From: Gallionellaceae bacterium
GTDB taxonomy: Bacteria > Pseudomonadota > Gammaproteobacteria > Burkholderiales > Gallionellaceae
DNA length: 51,251 nt
Reading direction: 5' to 3'
Assembly (NCBI GenBank): GCA_008080515.1
Contig: VIKH01000015.1
Coordinates: forward strand, 1 to 51,251
Shown: positions 29,155-38,304 of the stretch, piece after piece
Layout: each line of letters opens with the position of its first letter
Numbering within the stretch: position 1 is the first letter of the stretch
Made by a program: the position numbers and the translations under genes
The notes under the pieces: model-generated
What the model was told of the DNA's origin: nothing
The model's database searches: none
The model's input: the letters and a program-made list of their open reading frames with translations, nothing else

Positions 29155-31273
29155 ATGACCGCACCCGATCACATTGACCTGCAAATTACCGGCATGCACT
29201 GTGCGGCTTGCTCTGCACGCCTGGAAAAAGTATTGAACAAGTTGCCGCATGTAGTGGCAGCAGTAAGCATTGCCACCGAGAAGGCCCACATTAGCTACGA
29301 CCCCGGTCAAATTGGTCTTGCCGACTTAATCAAAGCAGTGCGGGGCGCGGGCTTCGATGCTCATGAGGTACGCGATTTTGCCGCCGAAAAACGGGAGCGC
29401 GCCGCCGTATATCGCCAGGAACAAATCCGGTTTTTTATCTCGGCGTTGCTTGCGCTGCCGCTGCTTGCGGAAATGCTGCTGATGTTTGCCGGAACCCACG
29501 TCATGCTACCGGCCTGGCTGCAATGGCTGCTCGCCACGCCGGTGCAATTCTGGATAGGGAAGCGTTTCTATGTCGGCGCCTGGAGCAGCCTGCGCGGCGG
29601 CGGTGCGAACATGGATGTGCTGGTCGCGCTCGGCACCAGCGCAGCCTATCTGTTGAGCTGCGCCGTATTGCTGGCCAATTCTTTCGGGCTAGGCATCGGC
29701 CAGCCGATTTATTTTGAAGCCAGCGCAACTCTGATCACACTGGTGCTGCTGGGCAAACTGCTGGAAGCGCGCGCCAAGGGCAAGGCTTCCGCCGCACTCG
29801 AGGCCTTGATCGACCTGCAACCCAAGCTGGCGCACATAGAGCGCGACGGCATCGTGGCGGAAGTGCCGGTGGCGCAGGTGAAACCCGACGATATATTCCG
29901 GGTGCGTCCCGGCGAGAGCGTGCCAGTGGATGGCGTGGTGCTGGAAGGCGCGTCCAGCGTGGACGAAGCCATGCTTACCGGAGAAAGCCTGCCACGGGAA
30001 AAACAGGGTGGCGACAAAGTGTACGCTGCCACCCTGAACCAGCGGGGGCTGCTCAAGTGTCGCGCCGTAGCGGTGGGCGCGCAGACCCAACTGGCTGCGA
30101 TCATCCGCTTGGTGGAACAGGCGCAGGGCTCGAAAGCGCCGATTCAGAAGCTGGCGGATAAAATTTCCGGGATTTTTGTGCCGGTAGTGCTGGCGGTTGC
30201 CGCCCTGACGTTTATCGCGTGGTGGGCGGCAGGCGCAGGCTTTACCGCAGCGCTTATCAACGCGGTATCGGTGCTGGTCATCGCCTGCCCGTGCGCGTTG
30301 GGGCTGGCCACCCCGACCGCCGTGGTGGTCGCCACCGGGCGTGCCGCCCATGCCGGCATCCTGGTCAAAGACGCCGCCGCGCTGGAGCGCGCGCACAAGC
30401 TCACCGTGCTGGTGGCGGATAAAACCGGCACGCTGACATTAGGCAAGCCCGTTGTTACCGACCTGTTACCGGTGCCGGGAGCCGGTTCGGAAGAGCTGCT
30501 GCAACTTGCCGCCAGCATGGCGCAAGGCTCCACCCACCCCCTGTCGCGCGCCCTGCTGGAACACGCGCAGACGCAACAGGCCGAACTCCTCCATCCCGAT
30601 GCGTTCCACGAGCTTTCCGGCAGCGGCCTGCGCGCGGAAATCGGCGGCGTTCATTATCTGCTCGGCTCTCCGGCATTTGTCGCCAGCGAAAATATCGCGC
30701 TGGATAGCGCGCAGACGCTTTCCTTGCAGCAGCAGGGCAAAACGGTCGTTGCGGTGGCGCGCGAAGCCACCCTGCTGGGCTGCATCGCCTTCGCCGATAC
30801 GCTGCGCGTCAGCAGCGCCAGCGCGGTACAGCGTCTGGCTGGGATGGGTGTCCGCGTGGTGATGTTGAGCGGCGACAACATCGCCACCGCACAGGCTATC
30901 GCCAGCAAGGCGGGCATCGCCGAATTTCGCGCAGAAGTGTTGCCGCAGGACAAGGCGGGCCACGTGCAGGCGTTAAAGGCGGAGGGCTTGCTGGTCGGCA
31001 TGGTCGGTGACGGCATCAACGATGCGCCCGCGCTGGCCGTCGCCGATGTCAGTTTCGCGATGCGTAGCGGCAGCGACATTGCTATCGAGGCCGCCGACAT
31101 CACCCTGATGCGCAACGATCTGGTGAGCGTGGCCGATGCCATCAGCGTGTCGCGCGCGACGTTGAAAAAAATCCGCCAGAACCTGTTCTTCGCTTTCGCC
31201 TATAACGTGCTGGGCATCCCGCTGGCGGCGCTCGGCATGCTCAACCCGGTGATCGCGGGCGCGGCCATGGCGA
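29155..31273 (+). CDS. copA: Copper-transporting P1B-type ATPase, C-terminus replaced by jetA
   Basis: Residues 1-704 of a 1189-codon ORF form a Cu(I)-exporting ATPase. An N-terminal HMA domain has GMHCAAC at 13-19, the ion-binding CPC is at 378-380, the phosphorylated DKTGT at D422, the TGES actuator motif is at TGESLP, and GDGIND at 618-623. The last helix begins [11 protein letters not shown] but lacks the expected S-S-V-S-V-V-x-N end with its conserved Met/Ser copper ligands. Instead the frame enters jetA. So about 20 residues are missing and transport may be lost. A 60-bp piece of this end is repeated upstream of copZ. Confidence 0.9.
31214..31273 (+). repeat. Left copy of a perfect 60-bp direct repeat (end of copA)
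   Basis: These 60 bases, from GCATCCCGCTGG to GGCCATGGCGA, are identical to 38039-38098. The copy is in frame in copA and includes the ATG that begins the JetA-like sequence. The flanking bases differ on both sides. Confidence 0.95.
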
Positions 31274-32724
31274 CAATCGTGAGCCTCGACTATGCCACCC
31301 TCGATACCTTGCGACGCAGCCACCCTGCTTGGCGCTTGCTGTTGGCCGACCATGCGCCGCTAGTGGCAAGCTTTCTGCGAAGGGTGTTTGTCTTGCCCAA
31401 TGTGCGAGGCATGGCGCAGGCGGAGCTGGTTTCAAAACTGGAAGACGAGTTGTTTCGTTTGCGCCAGTCGCAGGGGGATGCGTCCTTCCCCAAACCGGCG
31501 GCGGCTTACCTTGAAGATTGGACGCAGGAAACGCGCGGCTGGTTGCGCAAATATTATCCGCCGGGGTCGGACGAGGCGCATTTCGATCTGACTCCGGCCA
31601 CCGAGAAAGCCATTGCCTGGCTGGAGAGCCTCATCCAGCGCGCCTTCGTGGGTACCGAGTCGCGCCTGATGACGGTGTTCGAATTGCTCAAGCAAATGGT
31701 GGAAGGCAGCGATGCCAACCCCGATGCGCGCATCCGCGAACTGGAGAAACGCAAGGCGGAGATCAATGCCGAAATTGCGCGCATCCGCGATGGCGAACTC
31801 GCCCTGCTCGACGAGACGGCGCTGAAAGATCGTTTCCAGCAAGTATCAGCCACGGCGCGGGAACTGCTGGCCGATTTCCGCGAAGTGGAGCAAAACTTCC
31901 GCACCCTGGATCGCAGCACACGCGAGCGCATCGCCTTATGGGAAGGCGCGAAAGGCGGCTTACTGGAATCCATTTTCGGCGAGCGCGACGCGATTGCCGA
32001 TTCCGACCAGGGCAAGAGTTTCCGGGCATTTTGGGATTTTCTGATGTCGCCCGAACGGCAGGAGGAATTGTCCGCCTTGCTCAAGGTGGTTTTCGAGCTA
32101 CAGGCGGTGCGCGCGCTTGAGCCGGATGCGCGCCTGAAACGGGTGCATTACGACTGGCTCGAAGCGGGCGAACACACGCAACGCACCGTGTCGTTGCTAT
32201 CGCAGCAGTTGCGACGTTTTCTCGACGACCAGGTCTGGCTCGAAAACCGCCGCATCATGGAGATCATTCGCCATATCGAAGCACGCGCGCTGGCTCTGCG
32301 CGGGGACATGCCCAAAGAGCACGCGTTCATGGAGATCGACGATGTCGCACCGAGCATCGAACTGCCCATGGAGCGCCCCCTGTTTTCGGTGCTGATCAAG
32401 CCCATGCTCACGGATAAAATACTGGCTGACGACGATGGGCTTTTGGCGGCGGATGCGCTGTTCGGTCATGTGGTGGTGGATAAGGCGCAGCTTGTGGCAC
32501 AAGTACTCCATGTTTTGCAAACGCGGCAGCAGGTTACACTGCAAGAATTGCTGGGTGAATTTCCATTGAAACAAGGGCTGGCGGAATTAGTGACCTATCT
32601 CGCCTTGGCCAGCGAAGACAATAAAGCATTATTCGATGAAGACAATTACGATACCGTGCGCTGGGTAGATGGCGGCGGCGCAAGCCGAAGCGCAAGCTTG
32701 CCGCGCGTGATTTTCAACAGGTAA
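31267..32724 (+). CDS. jetA: Wadjet protein JetA (DUF3375, MukF/kleisin-like)
   Basis: From the internal ATG at 31267 the product is 485 residues, the full length of DUF3375 proteins. The match begins [20 protein letters not shown], and GTG at 31279 is another possible start. Acidic helical stretches (about 160-220) look like kleisin coiled-coil parts. In Wadjet, JetA bridges the JetC motor heads and binds JetB. The gene is read in frame from copA, so either a CopA-JetA fusion is made or JetA starts internally; no clear binding site precedes the ATG. jetB follows after three bases. Confidence 0.88.
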
Positions 32725-32727
32725 AGA

Positions 32728-33321
32728 ATGTATAACGAAGAAGTTGAGGGCCAGGCATTCTCCCGCGTATTGATCGCTTTGATGAAAGGCGTCGTGTATC
32801 AGGATACCGATGCGGCTATCTGGCAGGCATTGCTCGGCTTGCAGGCCAGGGTGCGAGATTATCTTGCGGTGCTGGGGTTGGGGCTGGTGCTGGATGAGGC
32901 GGAAGGTTATGCGTGGCTGGAAACCCAGCCTGCGCCCGAGGAGGGGGAGGCGTTGCCGCGTCTGGTGGTGAAGCGGCCCTTGTCATTTCCGGTGAGTTTG
33001 TTGCTGGCATTGCTGCGCAAGAAGTTGGCCGAGTTTGATGCGGGCGGCGAGGATACGCGGCTCATTCTTACGCGCGATGAGGTGGCCGATATGGTCAGGT
33101 TGTTTCTGCCTGCCGGGGTGAACGAGGCGCGCATCGTGGATCAGATAGACACCCATCTGAACAAGATCATCGAACTGGGTTTTGCGCGCCGTATGCGCGG
33201 GCAGACCCATCTCATCGAAGTGCGCCGCATCCTGAAGGCCTTTGTCGATGCCCAATGGCTGTCCGAATTCGATCAGCGCCTGGCCACGTATTGCATCAAT
33301 GTGATGGGCGAACAGGCATGA
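32728..33321 (+). CDS. jetB: Wadjet protein JetB (DUF4194, MukE-like)
   Basis: The 197-residue acidic protein matches DUF4194: an N-terminal helix (FSRVLIALMKGVVYQD), GYAWLE, and a winged-helix segment with RLILTRDEVADMVRLFL and KIIELGFARRM. It is the KITE-type dimer that binds the kleisin JetA. Its stop overlaps the jetC start as ATGA, a sign of stoichiometric expression. Confidence 0.9.
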   Translation: MYNEEVEGQAFSRVLIALMKGVVYQDTDAAIWQALLGLQARVRDYLAVLGLGLVLDEAEGYAWLETQPAPEEGEALPRLVVKRPLSFPVSLLLALLRKKLAEFDAGGEDTRLILTRDEVADMVRLFLPAGVNEARIVDQIDTHLNKIIELGFARRMRGQTHLIEVRRILKAFVDAQWLSEFDQRLATYCINVMGEQA

Positions 33322-36300
33322 ACACCGTGGCCGCCGAAAGCAGAATGTTGGATTTCTCCGGGCAGGAAGAGCGCAGCGGCTTTCGCCTGCATCGCTTGGA
33401 GGTGTACAACTGGGGCACTTTCAACGGCAAGGTGCGGGCGCTGCAAACGGGAGGCGATAACGCATTGCTCACCGGCGACATCGGATCGGGCAAATCCACT
33501 CTGGTGGATGCGGTGACGACGCTGCTGGTGCCTGCCAGCCGCGTCGCCTACAACAAGGCGGCAGGCGCGGAATTCAAGGAGAGGACGTTGCGCTCCTATG
33601 TGCTGGGGCACTACAAATCCGAGCGCAGCGAAACAGGCGCATCCGCCAAGCCTGTCGCGTTGCGCGATCACAACGACTACTCTGTGATCCTCGGTGTATT
33701 TCAGAACGGGGGCTTCGGCTTCAGCGTCACGCTGGCACAGGTTTTTTTCTGGGCGAAAAGTACCCAGGGGCAGCCGGAGCGTTTTTATCTGGTGGCCGAC
33801 CGTGGCATGTCCATCGCTGCCGACTTCACCGGATTCGGCACCGACATCAGCGGACTGAAGAAGCGTTTGCGCGCCATGACCGGCGTGGAGTTGTTTGAAA
33901 CTTTTCCGTCATATGCGGCGGCATTCCGCCGCCGCTTCGATATTAAAAACGATCAGGCGCTGGAGTTGTTCCACCAGACGGTGTCGATGAAATCGGTGGG
34001 CAGCCTCACCGATTTTGTGCGCGAACACATGCTCGAAGCCTTCGATGTGGAGTCGCGCATCGCGGCGTTGATCCATCATTTCGATGACCTGAACCGCGCG
34101 CACGAAGCGGTGCTCAAGACCAAGGATCAAGTCGCGCGCCTGTCGCCGCTGGTTGCCGATTGCACGCGCTTCGACCAGCTGACGGCGCAAATCGGCGAAT
34201 GGCGGAATTGCCGCGAGGCGCTGAAGCCGTATTTTTCCTCGCTCAAGGCCGAGCTGCTGGAAAAACGGCTGCTCAACCTGAAGGAGGTAGCGGAGCGGCT
34301 CGGTGGCAGAATTCAGGCGCTGGGCGCGGTGCGTGGCACGCAGCAGGGCGAGCGCGACGGGATCAAGCGCGCCATCGCGGAAAACGGCGGCGACCGCATC
34401 GAGCGTATCGCGGATGATATTCGCAGCAAGCAGCAAGAGAAAACAAGAAAGCTGGCGCGCGCGGAGCGTTATGCGGAGTTGGCGCAAAGGCTGGAGATCG
34501 TTTCCGCAAGCGATGTGGATGGCTTCGTCGGCAACCGCCACCGCCTCGCCGAGCTGCGCGAAACATTTCAGACGCGCGATGCGGAACTGCAAAACCGGCA
34601 AACCGAAGCGGGCGTCGACCTGCGCGGCCTCAAGCTGGAACACGAAACGATAGCAGCAGAGCTCGCCTCCCTCAGGAAACGGCGCAGCAATATTCCCGAG
34701 GCGCAAATCGCCATCCGGCACATGCTTTGCGCGGCGCTCGACGTGGCGGAGGAAGCCATGCCTTTTGCCGGGGAATTGATCCAGGTGCGCGCCGAAGATG
34801 CCGCGTGGGAAGGCGCAGCCGAACGGTTGCTGCATAACTTCGGCGTTTCACTGTTAGTGCCGGAAAAGCATTATGCCGGGGTGACCGCTTGGGTGGAACA
34901 AACCCATCTGAAGGGGAGGCTGGTTTATTTTCGTGTGCGCGAAACCAAGGTTGATGAGCGCTCTTCCCTGCATCCTGATTCGCTGGCGCGCAAGCTCGCG
35001 ATCAAGCCCGATTCGTCTTTTTATGGCTGGCTGGAAAGCGAACTGGCGCGCCGTTTCGACTATGCCTGTTGCGGGACGCTGGAGCAATTCCGCCGCGAAC
35101 GACAGGCGATTACCCGCGCCGGGCAAGTCAAGGCAGGTGCGGATCGCCACGAAAAAGATGACCGCCACCGCCTCGATGATCGCAGCCGCTATGTGCTGGG
35201 CTGGAGCAATGAAAACAAAATCGCGGCTTTTGAAAAACAGGCCAAGGGGCAGGAAGGGCGGATGCAATCTCTTGCCGACATCATCGGCAAAGCGCAAGGC
35301 GAGCGGAACGCGCTGGCCGACCGCTTGCAATGGCTGGCACAGATCGGCGAGTACACCGATTTCAGCGAACTCGACTGGCAGCCTGCTGCGGTTTTGATTT
35401 CAGAGCTTGAGGCCGAAAAGAAAACACTGGAGGCCGCATCCGACATGCTGCAAACATTGGGCACCCAGCTCAAGGCTGTTGAAGAAAAACTCAAGCAGAC
35501 GGAAAACGATCTGGGCGAGCGCAACAGGGAACTTGCCCGCAATGAAGAGAAGCGGGAGCAGGCAAGCTTGTTGCTCGCAGAGTGCCAGGCTGCGGTTGCT
35601 GCATTTGATGCGGGCCAACAGGAAAATCGCTTTACACAACTGGACAAATTGCGTGCCGAGGCACTGGGCGAACACACGTTAACCGTGGAGTCTTGCGACA
35701 ACCGCGAGCATGACATGCGCGAATGGTTGCAGAAAAATATTGATGGTGAAGACAGGAAGCTCAAATATCTGCAAGAGAAAATCGTTAAGACCATGCAGGA
35801 GTACCGCAACAAATACCCGCTGGAGACCAAGGACGCGGACGCCAGCGTGGATGCCGCCCGCGAATACCGCGCCATGTTGCAACAACTGCAAGCCGACGAT
35901 CTGCCGCGTTTTGAGGCGCGTTTCAAGGAATTGCTGAACGAAAACACCATCCGCGAAATTGCCAATTTCCAGTCGCAACTTGCGCGCGAACGGGAAAACA
36001 TCCGCGAGCGCATCGAACGCATCAACGCCTCGCTCGCGCAAATTGATTACAACCCGAACCGCTACATCTTGCTGGAAGCGCAGATCAGTGCGGATATGGA
36101 AATACGCGACTTTCAGCAAGAGTTGAAAGCCTGCACCGAAGGCGCGCTGACCGGCTCGGAAGACGCGCAGTATTCCGAGGCGAAATTCCTGCAAGTGAAA
36201 GCGATCATCGAACGCTTTCGCGGGCGCGAAGGCAGCACGGAACCAGACCGGCGTTGGACGCGCAAAGTCACCGACGTGCGCCAATGGTTCGTGTTTTCGG

Positions 36301-36704
36301 CATCGGAACGCTGGCGCGAAGACAACAGCGAATATGAGCACTACACCGATTCCGGCGGCAAATCCGGCGGACAGAAAGAGAAACTGGCCTACACCATCCT
36401 CGCGGCCAGCCTGGCCTACCAGTTCGGTCTTGAGTGGGGTGCTGCACGCTCGCGCAGTTTCCGCTTCGTGGTCATAGACGAAGCGTTCGGGCGCGGTTCC
36501 GATGAGTCGGCGCACTTCGGCCTGGAGTTGTTCAAACGGCTCAACCTGCAACTGCTGATCGTCACGCCTTTGCAGAAGATACACATTATCGAACCCTTCG
36601 TGTCCAGTGTCGGCTTCGTCCACAACGAGAAGGGGCATGATTCGCAATTGCGCAACCTCACCATTGCTGAGTACCGCGCCGAGCGGGATGCGAGGCGGGT
36701 ATGA
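33318..36704 (+). CDS. jetC: Wadjet SMC-like ATPase JetC (MukB-like)
   Basis: The product is 1128 residues from ATG 33318; an upstream in-frame start would lie inside jetB. Walker A GDIGSGKST is at 53-61, a long central region of coiled coil follows with a hinge-like part around 480-620, then the ABC signature SGGKSGGQKEKL at 1012-1023 and Walker B VVIDEAFG near D1054-E1055. In characterised Wadjet systems JetC extrudes DNA loops with ATP and detects small circular DNA such as plasmids. All key motifs are intact. Confidence 0.95.
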   Translation: MNTVAAESRMLDFSGQEERSGFRLHRLEVYNWGTFNGKVRALQTGGDNALLTGDIGSGKSTLVDAVTTLLVPASRVAYNKAAGAEFKERTLRSYVLGHYKSERSETGASAKPVALRDHNDYSVILGVFQNGGFGFSVTLAQVFFWAKSTQGQPERFYLVADRGMSIAADFTGFGTDISGLKKRLRAMTGVELFETFPSYAAAFRRRFDIKNDQALELFHQTVSMKSVGSLTDFVREHMLEAFDVESRIAALIHHFDDLNRAHEAVLKTKDQVARLSPLVADCTRFDQLTAQIGEWRNCREALKPYFSSLKAELLEKRLLNLKEVAERLGGRIQALGAVRGTQQGERDGIKRAIAENGGDRIERIADDIRSKQQEKTRKLARAERYAELAQRLEIVSASDVDGFVGNRHRLAELRETFQTRDAELQNRQTEAGVDLRGLKLEHETIAAELASLRKRRSNIPEAQIAIRHMLCAALDVAEEAMPFAGELIQVRAEDAAWEGAAERLLHNFGVSLLVPEKHYAGVTAWVEQTHLKGRLVYFRVRETKVDERSSLHPDSLARKLAIKPDSSFYGWLESELARRFDYACCGTLEQFRRERQAITRAGQVKAGADRHEKDDRHRLDDRSRYVLGWSNENKIAAFEKQAKGQEGRMQSLADIIGKAQGERNALADRLQWLAQIGEYTDFSELDWQPAAVLISELEAEKKTLEAASDMLQTLGTQLKAVEEKLKQTENDLGERNRELARNEEKREQASLLLAECQAAVAAFDAGQQENRFTQLDKLRAEALGEHTLTVESCDNREHDMREWLQKNIDGEDRKLKYLQEKIVKTMQEYRNKYPLETKDADASVDAAREYRAMLQQLQADDLPRFEARFKELLNENTIREIANFQSQLARERENIRERIERINASLAQIDYNPNRYILLEAQISADMEIRDFQQELKACTEGALTGSEDAQYSEAKFLQVKAIIERFRGREGSTEPDRRWTRKVTDVRQWFVFSASERWREDNSEYEHYTDSGGKSGGQKEKLAYTILAASLAYQFGLEWGAARSRSFRFVVIDEAFGRGSDESAHFGLELFKRLNLQLLIVTPLQKIHIIEPFVSSVGFVHNEKGHDSQLRNLTIAEYRAERDARRV

Positions 36705-37876
36705 GCGATTGGTCTACGCCCGGCGACATCCGCAACCGGGTGCGCCGCGATTGGGACAATGGCCGCATCCTGGCCGCCATGCTGGATGGCGAGCCGGTCT
36801 TCCCGCTACGCATTTCCTTGAAAAAACCCAACACCCAGGCGCTTTCCGAACACTTCGAAGCGGCGCGGCAGTGGGTTGCAGAATTAACTGCGGCAACCGG
36901 TTTTCAGTTGGAGTGGCGCGAGTTCAACCACCGGCAACTGGGGCGCAACCGCATTCCTGTAGCCGCGATTGTCGCAAGCGAACGCGATGGTCTGGCGCTG
37001 ATCGGCAAACTGCGCGATGCGTCCCAATTCCGTGTATTGGCCGCAACCCTCTCGGAAATTTATCCGGCGCTTGTCCCATGGCTAAGAAAGCGCCCGCTGA
37101 CGGTGTTAGACCATGTCGAAAACTGGCCGCGACTGATGGCCGTGCTGGACTGGATTATGTGCCACCCCCGCTCCGGTGTTTACCTGCGCCAGATAGACGT
37201 TCGGGGTGTGGATACCAAATTCATCGAACGCCACCGGGGCCTGCTTGGCGAGCTGCTGGATAGCATACTTCCGCCGGAGGTAATCGACACTCAATTTACT
37301 GGCGCAAACGGTTTCGCGCTGCGCTATGGTTTTAAGCGCAAACCGGAGCAGGTGCGTATCCGCTTTCTGGATCGGAAATTTTCTATACAGGGATTGCCGG
37401 ATATTGCCGTCACCAGTAACGAATTTGCCCGGATGGCGCTGCCTGTCAAGCGGGTATTTGTTACGGAAAATGAAATCAACTTCCTGAGCTTTCCAGATGT
37501 GACGGATAGCGTGATGTTATTTGGCGGGGGGTATGGTTTCGACCATCTTGCCCGAGCCGAATGGCTGCAAAGCAAGGAGATTTTCTATTGGGGCGACATC
37601 GACACCCACGGCTTCACAATCCTGGATCAATTGAGGAGCAAGTTCCCGGCGGCGCATTCACTGCTGATGGATCGTGCAACCTTGCTGGAACACCAAGCAC
37701 TCTGGGGTGTAGAGGATAGCCCGACAGTACGTGAGTTGGAACGCCTGCAACCGGATGAGTTGGCGCTTTATGATGATTTGCGCTTTAACCGCATTGCGCC
37801 AGCCTTGCGCCTTGAGCAAGAGCGAATCGGTTTCGCGTGGGTAGAGGTTGCGCTTGTGGGGGCAGGATTCCGTTGA
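36701..37876 (+). CDS. jetD: Wadjet nuclease JetD (DUF3322-DUF2220, Toprim)
   Basis: The 391-residue protein has an N-terminal DUF3322 domain (DIRNRVRRDWDNGRIL) and a C-terminal DUF2220 Toprim domain related to topoisomerase VI/Spo11. The catalytic Glu is E256 in VFVTENEINF and the metal-binding DxD is D299-I-D301 in YWGDIDTHGF. JetD cleaves the DNA that the JetABC motor has extruded. ATG overlaps the jetC stop. With all four genes intact, the system looks functional, provided JetA is expressed properly. Confidence 0.93.
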   Translation: MSDWSTPGDIRNRVRRDWDNGRILAAMLDGEPVFPLRISLKKPNTQALSEHFEAARQWVAELTAATGFQLEWREFNHRQLGRNRIPVAAIVASERDGLALIGKLRDASQFRVLAATLSEIYPALVPWLRKRPLTVLDHVENWPRLMAVLDWIMCHPRSGVYLRQIDVRGVDTKFIERHRGLLGELLDSILPPEVIDTQFTGANGFALRYGFKRKPEQVRIRFLDRKFSIQGLPDIAVTSNEFARMALPVKRVFVTENEINFLSFPDVTDSVMLFGGGYGFDHLARAEWLQSKEIFYWGDIDTHGFTILDQLRSKFPAAHSLLMDRATLLEHQALWGVEDSPTVRELERLQPDELALYDDLRFNRIAPALRLEQERIGFAWVEVALVGAGFR

Positions 37877-38038
37877 GATGGAATTAGCTTGTGGCTGTCA
37901 AATATCACACGAGGTGGCAGTGAGTGGCGCGAAGAGCATCGGGAAGTTGTGTGCGAAAATCGTGGTTAACAGGAATATCGCCGAAAGGCGAATCGGGGTA
38001 AGCAGGAATATTGCAATAGGCAATAACTTGCAAAACAA

Positions 38039-38098
38039 GCATCCCGCTGGCGGCGCTCGGCATGCTCAACCCGGTGATCGCGGGCGCGGCCATGGCGA
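38039..38098 (+). repeat. Right copy of the perfect 60-bp direct repeat
   Basis: Identical to 31214-31273. It follows 162 bases of noncoding sequence after jetD and ends at the first base of the copZ ATG, so the frame of copA ([11 protein letters not shown]) runs straight into CopZ. Confidence 0.95.
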
Positions 38099-38304
38099 TG
38101 GAAACCGTACAACTCAACATTCAGGGTATGACCTGCAACGGGTGCGTGAAAAACGTGACGGGAGTGCTGCAAAAAGTCCCGGGCGTTTCCAGCGTGGAAG
38201 TCTCGCTGGAACAAAGGTGCGCCAAGGTAGTCTACAATTCCGCCGAAGCTAACCCCGCACAGCTCAAGGCTGCGGTAGAGGGTGCGGGGTTTGAGGTTAT
38301 CTGA
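38098..38304 (+). CDS. copZ: CopZ-like copper chaperone (HMA domain)
   Basis: The 68-residue product is one heavy-metal-associated domain with the Cu(I) motif GMTCNGC (Cys 13 and 16) and the usual pattern ending FEVI. Such chaperones hand copper to CopA. The ATG lies immediately after the 60-bp copA-derived repeat with no visible ribosome binding site, and the frame is open through the repeat. It may be a stand-alone CopZ or what remains of a CopA C-terminal extension. Confidence 0.85.
   Translation: METVQLNIQGMTCNGCVKNVTGVLQKVPGVSSVEVSLEQRCAKVVYNSAEANPAQLKAAVEGAGFEVI

Follow-up and report, generated by a model that had tools for sequence, protein, structure and literature searches.

How a defence operon came to lie inside a copper-resistance locus, between two identical segments of the gene copA, is the question that this locus raises, together with the question of whether the ends of those segments mark a biological boundary or the limit of an assembly. 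The window, i.e. the whole stretch of 51,251 nucleotides that was analysed, is an entire contig (C182) of a Gallionellaceae bacterium genome, G000, which comprises 183 contigs and is 90.5% complete; its relevant features are collected in Table 1. The answer that we hold to be probable, if well short of settled, is that an ancestor within the genus received a complete type I Wadjet operon between copA and copZ, with duplication of the 3' end of copA, and that the 60 bases now printed on either side stand for a longer repeat that has collapsed. Our confidence is high for an insertion with copA duplication, moderate for a single crossover and likewise moderate for a truncation of the repeat by assembly.

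Table 1. Features of the window at and around the Wadjet operon
Feature	Position	Strand	Basis and remarks
copA (Cu+ P-type ATPase), last ~23 codons missing	29155..31273	+	TIGR01511/TIGR01525 above cut-off; in frame into jetA
Left repeat copy	31214..31273	+	copA codons up to GAAMA
jetA	31279..32724	+	PADLOC JetA1, E 3e-217; native GTG start suggested by relatives
jetB	32728..33321	+	PADLOC JetB1, E 5e-87
jetC, SMC/MukB-like ATPase	33318..36704	+	PADLOC JetC1, E 0
jetD, nuclease subunit	36701..37876	+	PADLOC JetD1, E 2e-148; nuclease role presumed from the family match
Non-coding right flank, 162 bp	37877..38038	+	End is a hairpin-like dispersed repeat; 90% identical in G002 C88, same place
Right repeat copy	38039..38098	+	Second copy, part of copA 3' end; G002 has other copA 3' pieces there
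copZ, copper chaperone	38098..38304	+	CopZ-family models, best E 1e-17, all below curated cut-offs; 84% amino-acid identity to G001 copZ

The original prediction had claimed a perfect repeat of 60 bases that differs immediately outside, and this is what the sequence holds: the two copies agree at 60/60 bases and the next base differs on both sides, an identity far above chance. No exact direct repeat in the window is longer than this pair (the next in length has 26 bp), and a search of the window's own genome at E<=0.001, 90.5% complete as it is, for the further copies that the original prediction had advised looking for returned the two window copies alone. Between them lie, as claimed, jetABCD and 162 bp, and the open reading frames of this 6.8-kb interval, whose long members are the four jet genes, include no integrase or transposase and leave no space for an integrase.

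The operon itself is an ordinary and complete type I Wadjet, a common defence against plasmids. Its genes are contiguous, co-directional and in the canonical order of JetABCD (MksBEFG) systems, all four with strong PADLOC matches to type I models, and JetC, which is 92% identical in amino acids both to that of the sister species G002 and to that of G174, a member of another genus, carries intact GDIGSGKST and VVIDEAFGRGSD sequences, invariant in the 4/4 aligned proteins, which we take to be the ATPase motifs. The window differs from such systems solely in the location of the operon between copA and copZ and in the copA duplication that flanks it.

Related genomes, which the original prediction had proposed to compare, present the locus both with and without the operon. 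In G001, of the same genus, the site is empty: copA with its full tail is followed by copZ, and no match to jetA was found in that genome. In G002, the Wadjet operon also lies between copA and copZ, as read from its right side, where contig C88 carries jetB, jetC and jetD (89% nucleotide identity over 5.3 kb) and then the 162-bp flank, which ends at the same bases, GCAAAACAA, as in the window; beyond it, after ~60 bases of different sequence, come a copA piece corresponding to window positions 31072-31125 (85%), the end of a copA tail, a spacer like that of G001, copZ, and genes that match the window as far as 42044, all on one contig. No jetA was found in G002, whose main copA is intact and lies on a different contig (C58) from jet. 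In G174, contig C95 joins copA, with its full tail and stop codon, to jetA across 28 bases, and 6.9 kb separate jetA from jetB; this extra DNA (L054 7447-587) contains several other open reading frames, and 3.2 kb are found at the same place in G170 (C38; L055 9301-6144). In G150 (C35; L053 8573-7440) jetA lies close to the last ~50 codons of jetD, and jetB, jetC and the rest of jetD were not seen in 14 kb.

These arrangements bear on the idea that the whole locus is a chimera, either because jetABCD does not lie at copA or because arms were wrongly paired through the 60-mer, in which case jetABCD would be a separate circle and copA and copZ contiguous. At a word length near 60, no single k-mer would link the four arms of the 60-mer, a point in favour of this idea; against it, G002 has jetD, the 162 bp, the copA pieces and copZ on one contig, and G174 has copA and jetA on another. 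Nor did an intact copA-copZ pair turn up elsewhere in the strain: neither a further 60-mer nor a copA tail was found in the 90.5%-complete G000. We regard a chimera as very improbable and reject it on account of the same right side on one contig in G002; the Wadjet insertion at copA and copZ looks real, and the claim that the operon sits in a copper locus with no integrase or transposase between the repeats is borne out by the reading frames there and by relatives with and without the insert.

While jetC is 89.7-90.9% identical among the window, G002 and G174, the window's copA is 81% identical to that of G002 and 74% to that of G174, and from this disparity in divergence the jet genes have probably moved between these lineages. 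One conceivable vehicle is a site-specific recombinase or transposon, supplied in trans or since lost. Genomic islands that tyrosine recombinases integrate at the 3' ends of genes are a familiar system, and the window resembles them in that a direct repeat taken from the end of a gene flanks the insert; moreover, in each of two genera (g1, g13) jet is found beside copA, jetC being ~90% and copA only 74% identical between them, the right flank ends in a hairpin-like dispersed repeat, and an IS-like sequence stands beside copA in G002. The window differs, however, in having no integrase or transposase within 6.8 kb and in a repeat that, as printed, stops before the gene end and does not restore the 3' end of copA, unlike att sites in gene ends; in addition, the tight hairpin pattern has one exact match in 5 genomes, and within ~1.5 kb on each side copA lies beside jetA in 2/25 family loci only (the window and G174). 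Entry by such an enzyme strikes us as improbable.

The hairpin-like sequence of ~40 bp that closes the flank (window 37989-38035, flank positions ~113-159; also G000 C112:51246-51278) has short matches in other family genomes, and these being scattered and short, with the single exact pattern match just mentioned, we discarded it as a mobile boundary. The IS-like sequence of G002 (C58:1-145, directly after copA) has 16 copies, counting this one, that are 98-100% identical, 9/16 of them within 7 bases of a contig start.

The end of copA deserves separate consideration. The two repeat copies terminate at one and the same base, and neither includes the tail of the gene; the claim of an insert at the end of copA needs correcting with regard to the last ~23 codons, which are present in 19/19 of the relatives' loci shown, where GAAMA or its equivalent leads into ...AMA(M/L)SSVSV... 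and a stop. The window's copA has no stop over 704 codons and reads in frame into jetA as an open reading frame of 1189 amino acids, whereas in G001 copA continues for 23 more codons past the equivalent point; with this G001 tail as query, no significant match was obtained elsewhere in G000 (best E 2.4). In an alignment to the solved CopA 3j09, the lost stretch includes a large part of the last helix. The second copper site of CopA, as listed in PMC7558416, comprises residues Met711 and Ser715 of helix 8, and, with an offset in numbering that we infer, the CopA encoded in the window would keep the equivalent of the former and lose that of the latter. Sequence before jetA and before copZ is absent as well: jetA of G150, G170 and G174 starts GTGAGCCT and the window is without the jetA leaders seen in relatives, and copZ directly follows the right repeat copy with neither the spacer nor the ribosome-binding site of G001, in which, as in G018, G020 and G027, the copA tail is followed by a spacer with a purine-rich ribosome-binding site and then copZ.

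The remnant in G002 clarifies what the 60-mer may be. Its copA pieces come from other parts of the copA 3' end than the window's 60-mer does, the tails of its main copA and of the remnant differ from each other, and the 51-bp piece of the remnant shows 3 differences from the genome's own copA. Because G002 keeps other copA 3' pieces at the same place, the ancestor most simply had a duplicated copA 3' end before copZ that was longer than 60 bp, and the idea that a short homology of 60 bp was itself the site of recombination, as the original prediction had suggested, is not supported. The most plausible reading of the 60-mer is that it shows part of a longer copA 3' duplicate, produced when the operon was inserted, and it should not be taken as a recombination site before the reads have been checked.

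That the number 60 might reflect the overlap of an assembly graph rather than biology was a concern of the original prediction, and a well-founded one. In a survey of exact repeats covering 88 of 96 stretches of G000 (402,175 bases), none exceeded 60 bp, the window's pair being the longest, and each repeat of 53 to 59 bp involves a contig end, or a position one base from it, or matches such an end. Three pairs of contig ends that enter a shared repeat (C33 end and C38 start, C33 start and C19 end, C9 end and C9 start) both stop exactly 59 bases in, and a further end, that of C28, shares 58. Contig ends sharing 59 bases point to a graph overlap of ~59 in this assembly, of which 60 is one above; the ends of the window's repeat are therefore not to be interpreted, and its precise extent is probably not trustworthy. 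A plain de Bruijn contig requires that the reads contain each k-mer crossing either junction, and hence an omission of sequence would need a faulty scaffold or gap join made without Ns. The assembly of G000 is indeed scaffolded, with N runs of 6, 19 and 62, and in rplJ on C26 (L099:2940; Pfam Ribosomal_L10) a 19-N gap stands where the sides overlap by 4 bases in comparison with G001 and G002, so that gap sizes and joins are inexact in this assembly; the three N-gaps examined in G000 revealed no clear case of lost sequence. G002, where contigs start with repeats of ~140 bp, looks as if it had been assembled differently.

Taken in order, the events that we favour would run as follows. A molecule carrying a 3' segment of copA together with jetABCD would have recombined with copA in an ancestor within the genus, so that jetA came to be preceded by a copA and copZ by part of a copA 3' end, by a route that requires no integrase, namely a single crossover of the Campbell type or a homology-assisted repair of ends. 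If the true repeat exceeded the word length of the assembler (~60), the sequences arriving from copA and from jetD would stop ~59-60 bases in, and the joins to jetA and to copZ would omit the rest, i.e. the copA tail, the jetA leader and the copZ ribosome-binding site. Collapse of one longer repeat would account together for the identity of the copies, their common 3' end and the loss of the tail, of the jetA leader and of the copZ ribosome-binding site, which independent deletions would explain less easily. In Campbell-type insertion-duplication, a known system, a full gene is left on one side and a partial 3' copy on the other, and such an outcome is suggested by G002, where copA 3' pieces and a spacer precede copZ next to the remnant while the site in G001 is empty. 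The locus differs from that system in that no donor is seen, in that the tails of copA and of the remnant differ in G002 and in that the window shows no restoration of the 3' end.

Alternatively, the sequence may be correct as printed, the duplicate on the copZ side having eroded to 60 bp and the upstream copA having lost its tail independently, with gene conversion or repeated excision and re-integration keeping the 60-mers identical and with CopA either dead or fused to JetA. The G002 remnant has likewise been eroded by deletion, microhomologies of ATG and GA occur at the two junctions, both joins are in frame and the copA tail is found nowhere in the 90.5%-complete G000, all of which would agree with this alternative. 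It would nonetheless need two deletions ending at the same base (an event that we roughly estimate at 2-6%), a repeat length that happens to lie at the limit of the assembly, the loss of the jetA leader, of the copZ ribosome-binding site and of a copper-site residue altogether, and 0/60 differences between the copies, though the 51-bp piece in G002 has accumulated 3. We consider it unlikely, yet not so remote as the involvement of a recombinase.

If the duplication made at insertion is accepted, the locus documents a traceable move of a defence operon into a conserved metal-resistance locus without a recombinase of its own, with the empty, occupied and eroded states all in hand; it also illustrates that a repeat whose length is close to the word length of an assembler can pass for a biological boundary. 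A broader and decidedly tentative suggestion is that type I Wadjet spreads among relatives of Gallionella and Sideroxydans without its own recombinase by way of homology to the conserved copA 3' end, copA serving as a landing site and the repeat permitting re-excision. A general association of jet with copA was considered and set aside: copA lies within ~1.5 kb of jetA on either side in the two loci already named among the 25 family loci (defined by jetA at E<=1e-100), and none of 78 GTDB loci with JetC relatives (search at E<=1e-8) has an adjoining copA, the G174 locus of that set ending before copA. In those 78 loci copZ stands beside jet in G002 alone, and the sole copA match is a weak one (32%), 3.5 kb beyond jetD in L167.

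As to the donor of the crossover, G174 has copA followed by jetA, but over most of its 3' end the window's copA shows no closer similarity to that genome. In a sliding comparison from 31136 onward, the window's copA is 94-100% identical to that of G002, 93-94% to that of G001 and 83% to that of G174, whereas one 60-column stretch from 31042 gives 92% for G174 and 90% for G014 against 85 and 83% in its own genus; the comparison being mixed, no donor segment from a G174-like genome is claimed. At the other end of the gene, its first ~290 bases (29155-29444, heavy-metal domain) are 74-76% identical to G174 against 57-63% within the same genus, and by this measure they appear closer to G174 than to their own genus, as in a mosaic gene.

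Plasmids offer little in the way of a source: only 7/72,556 plasmid records contain a JetC at E<=1e-100, the best at 61% identity, and a plasmid origin was rejected on these grounds. Plasmid-encoded Wadjet operons have been noted (PMC10586767), but Wadjet is reported to eliminate plasmids that are circular and smaller than ~100 kb (Pradhan et al. 2025, cited in PMC12375680), which makes a standing small circle carrying the cassette unlikely. The exact strings across the two junctions had 0 and 0 matches in IMG/VR, and a non-exhaustive search of the published literature found no Wadjet insertion at copA. A contig labelled Nitrospinota (JACRGO010000190.1; L111) carries a Wadjet whose JetC is 81% identical to that of the window, the result of either mis-binning or transfer.
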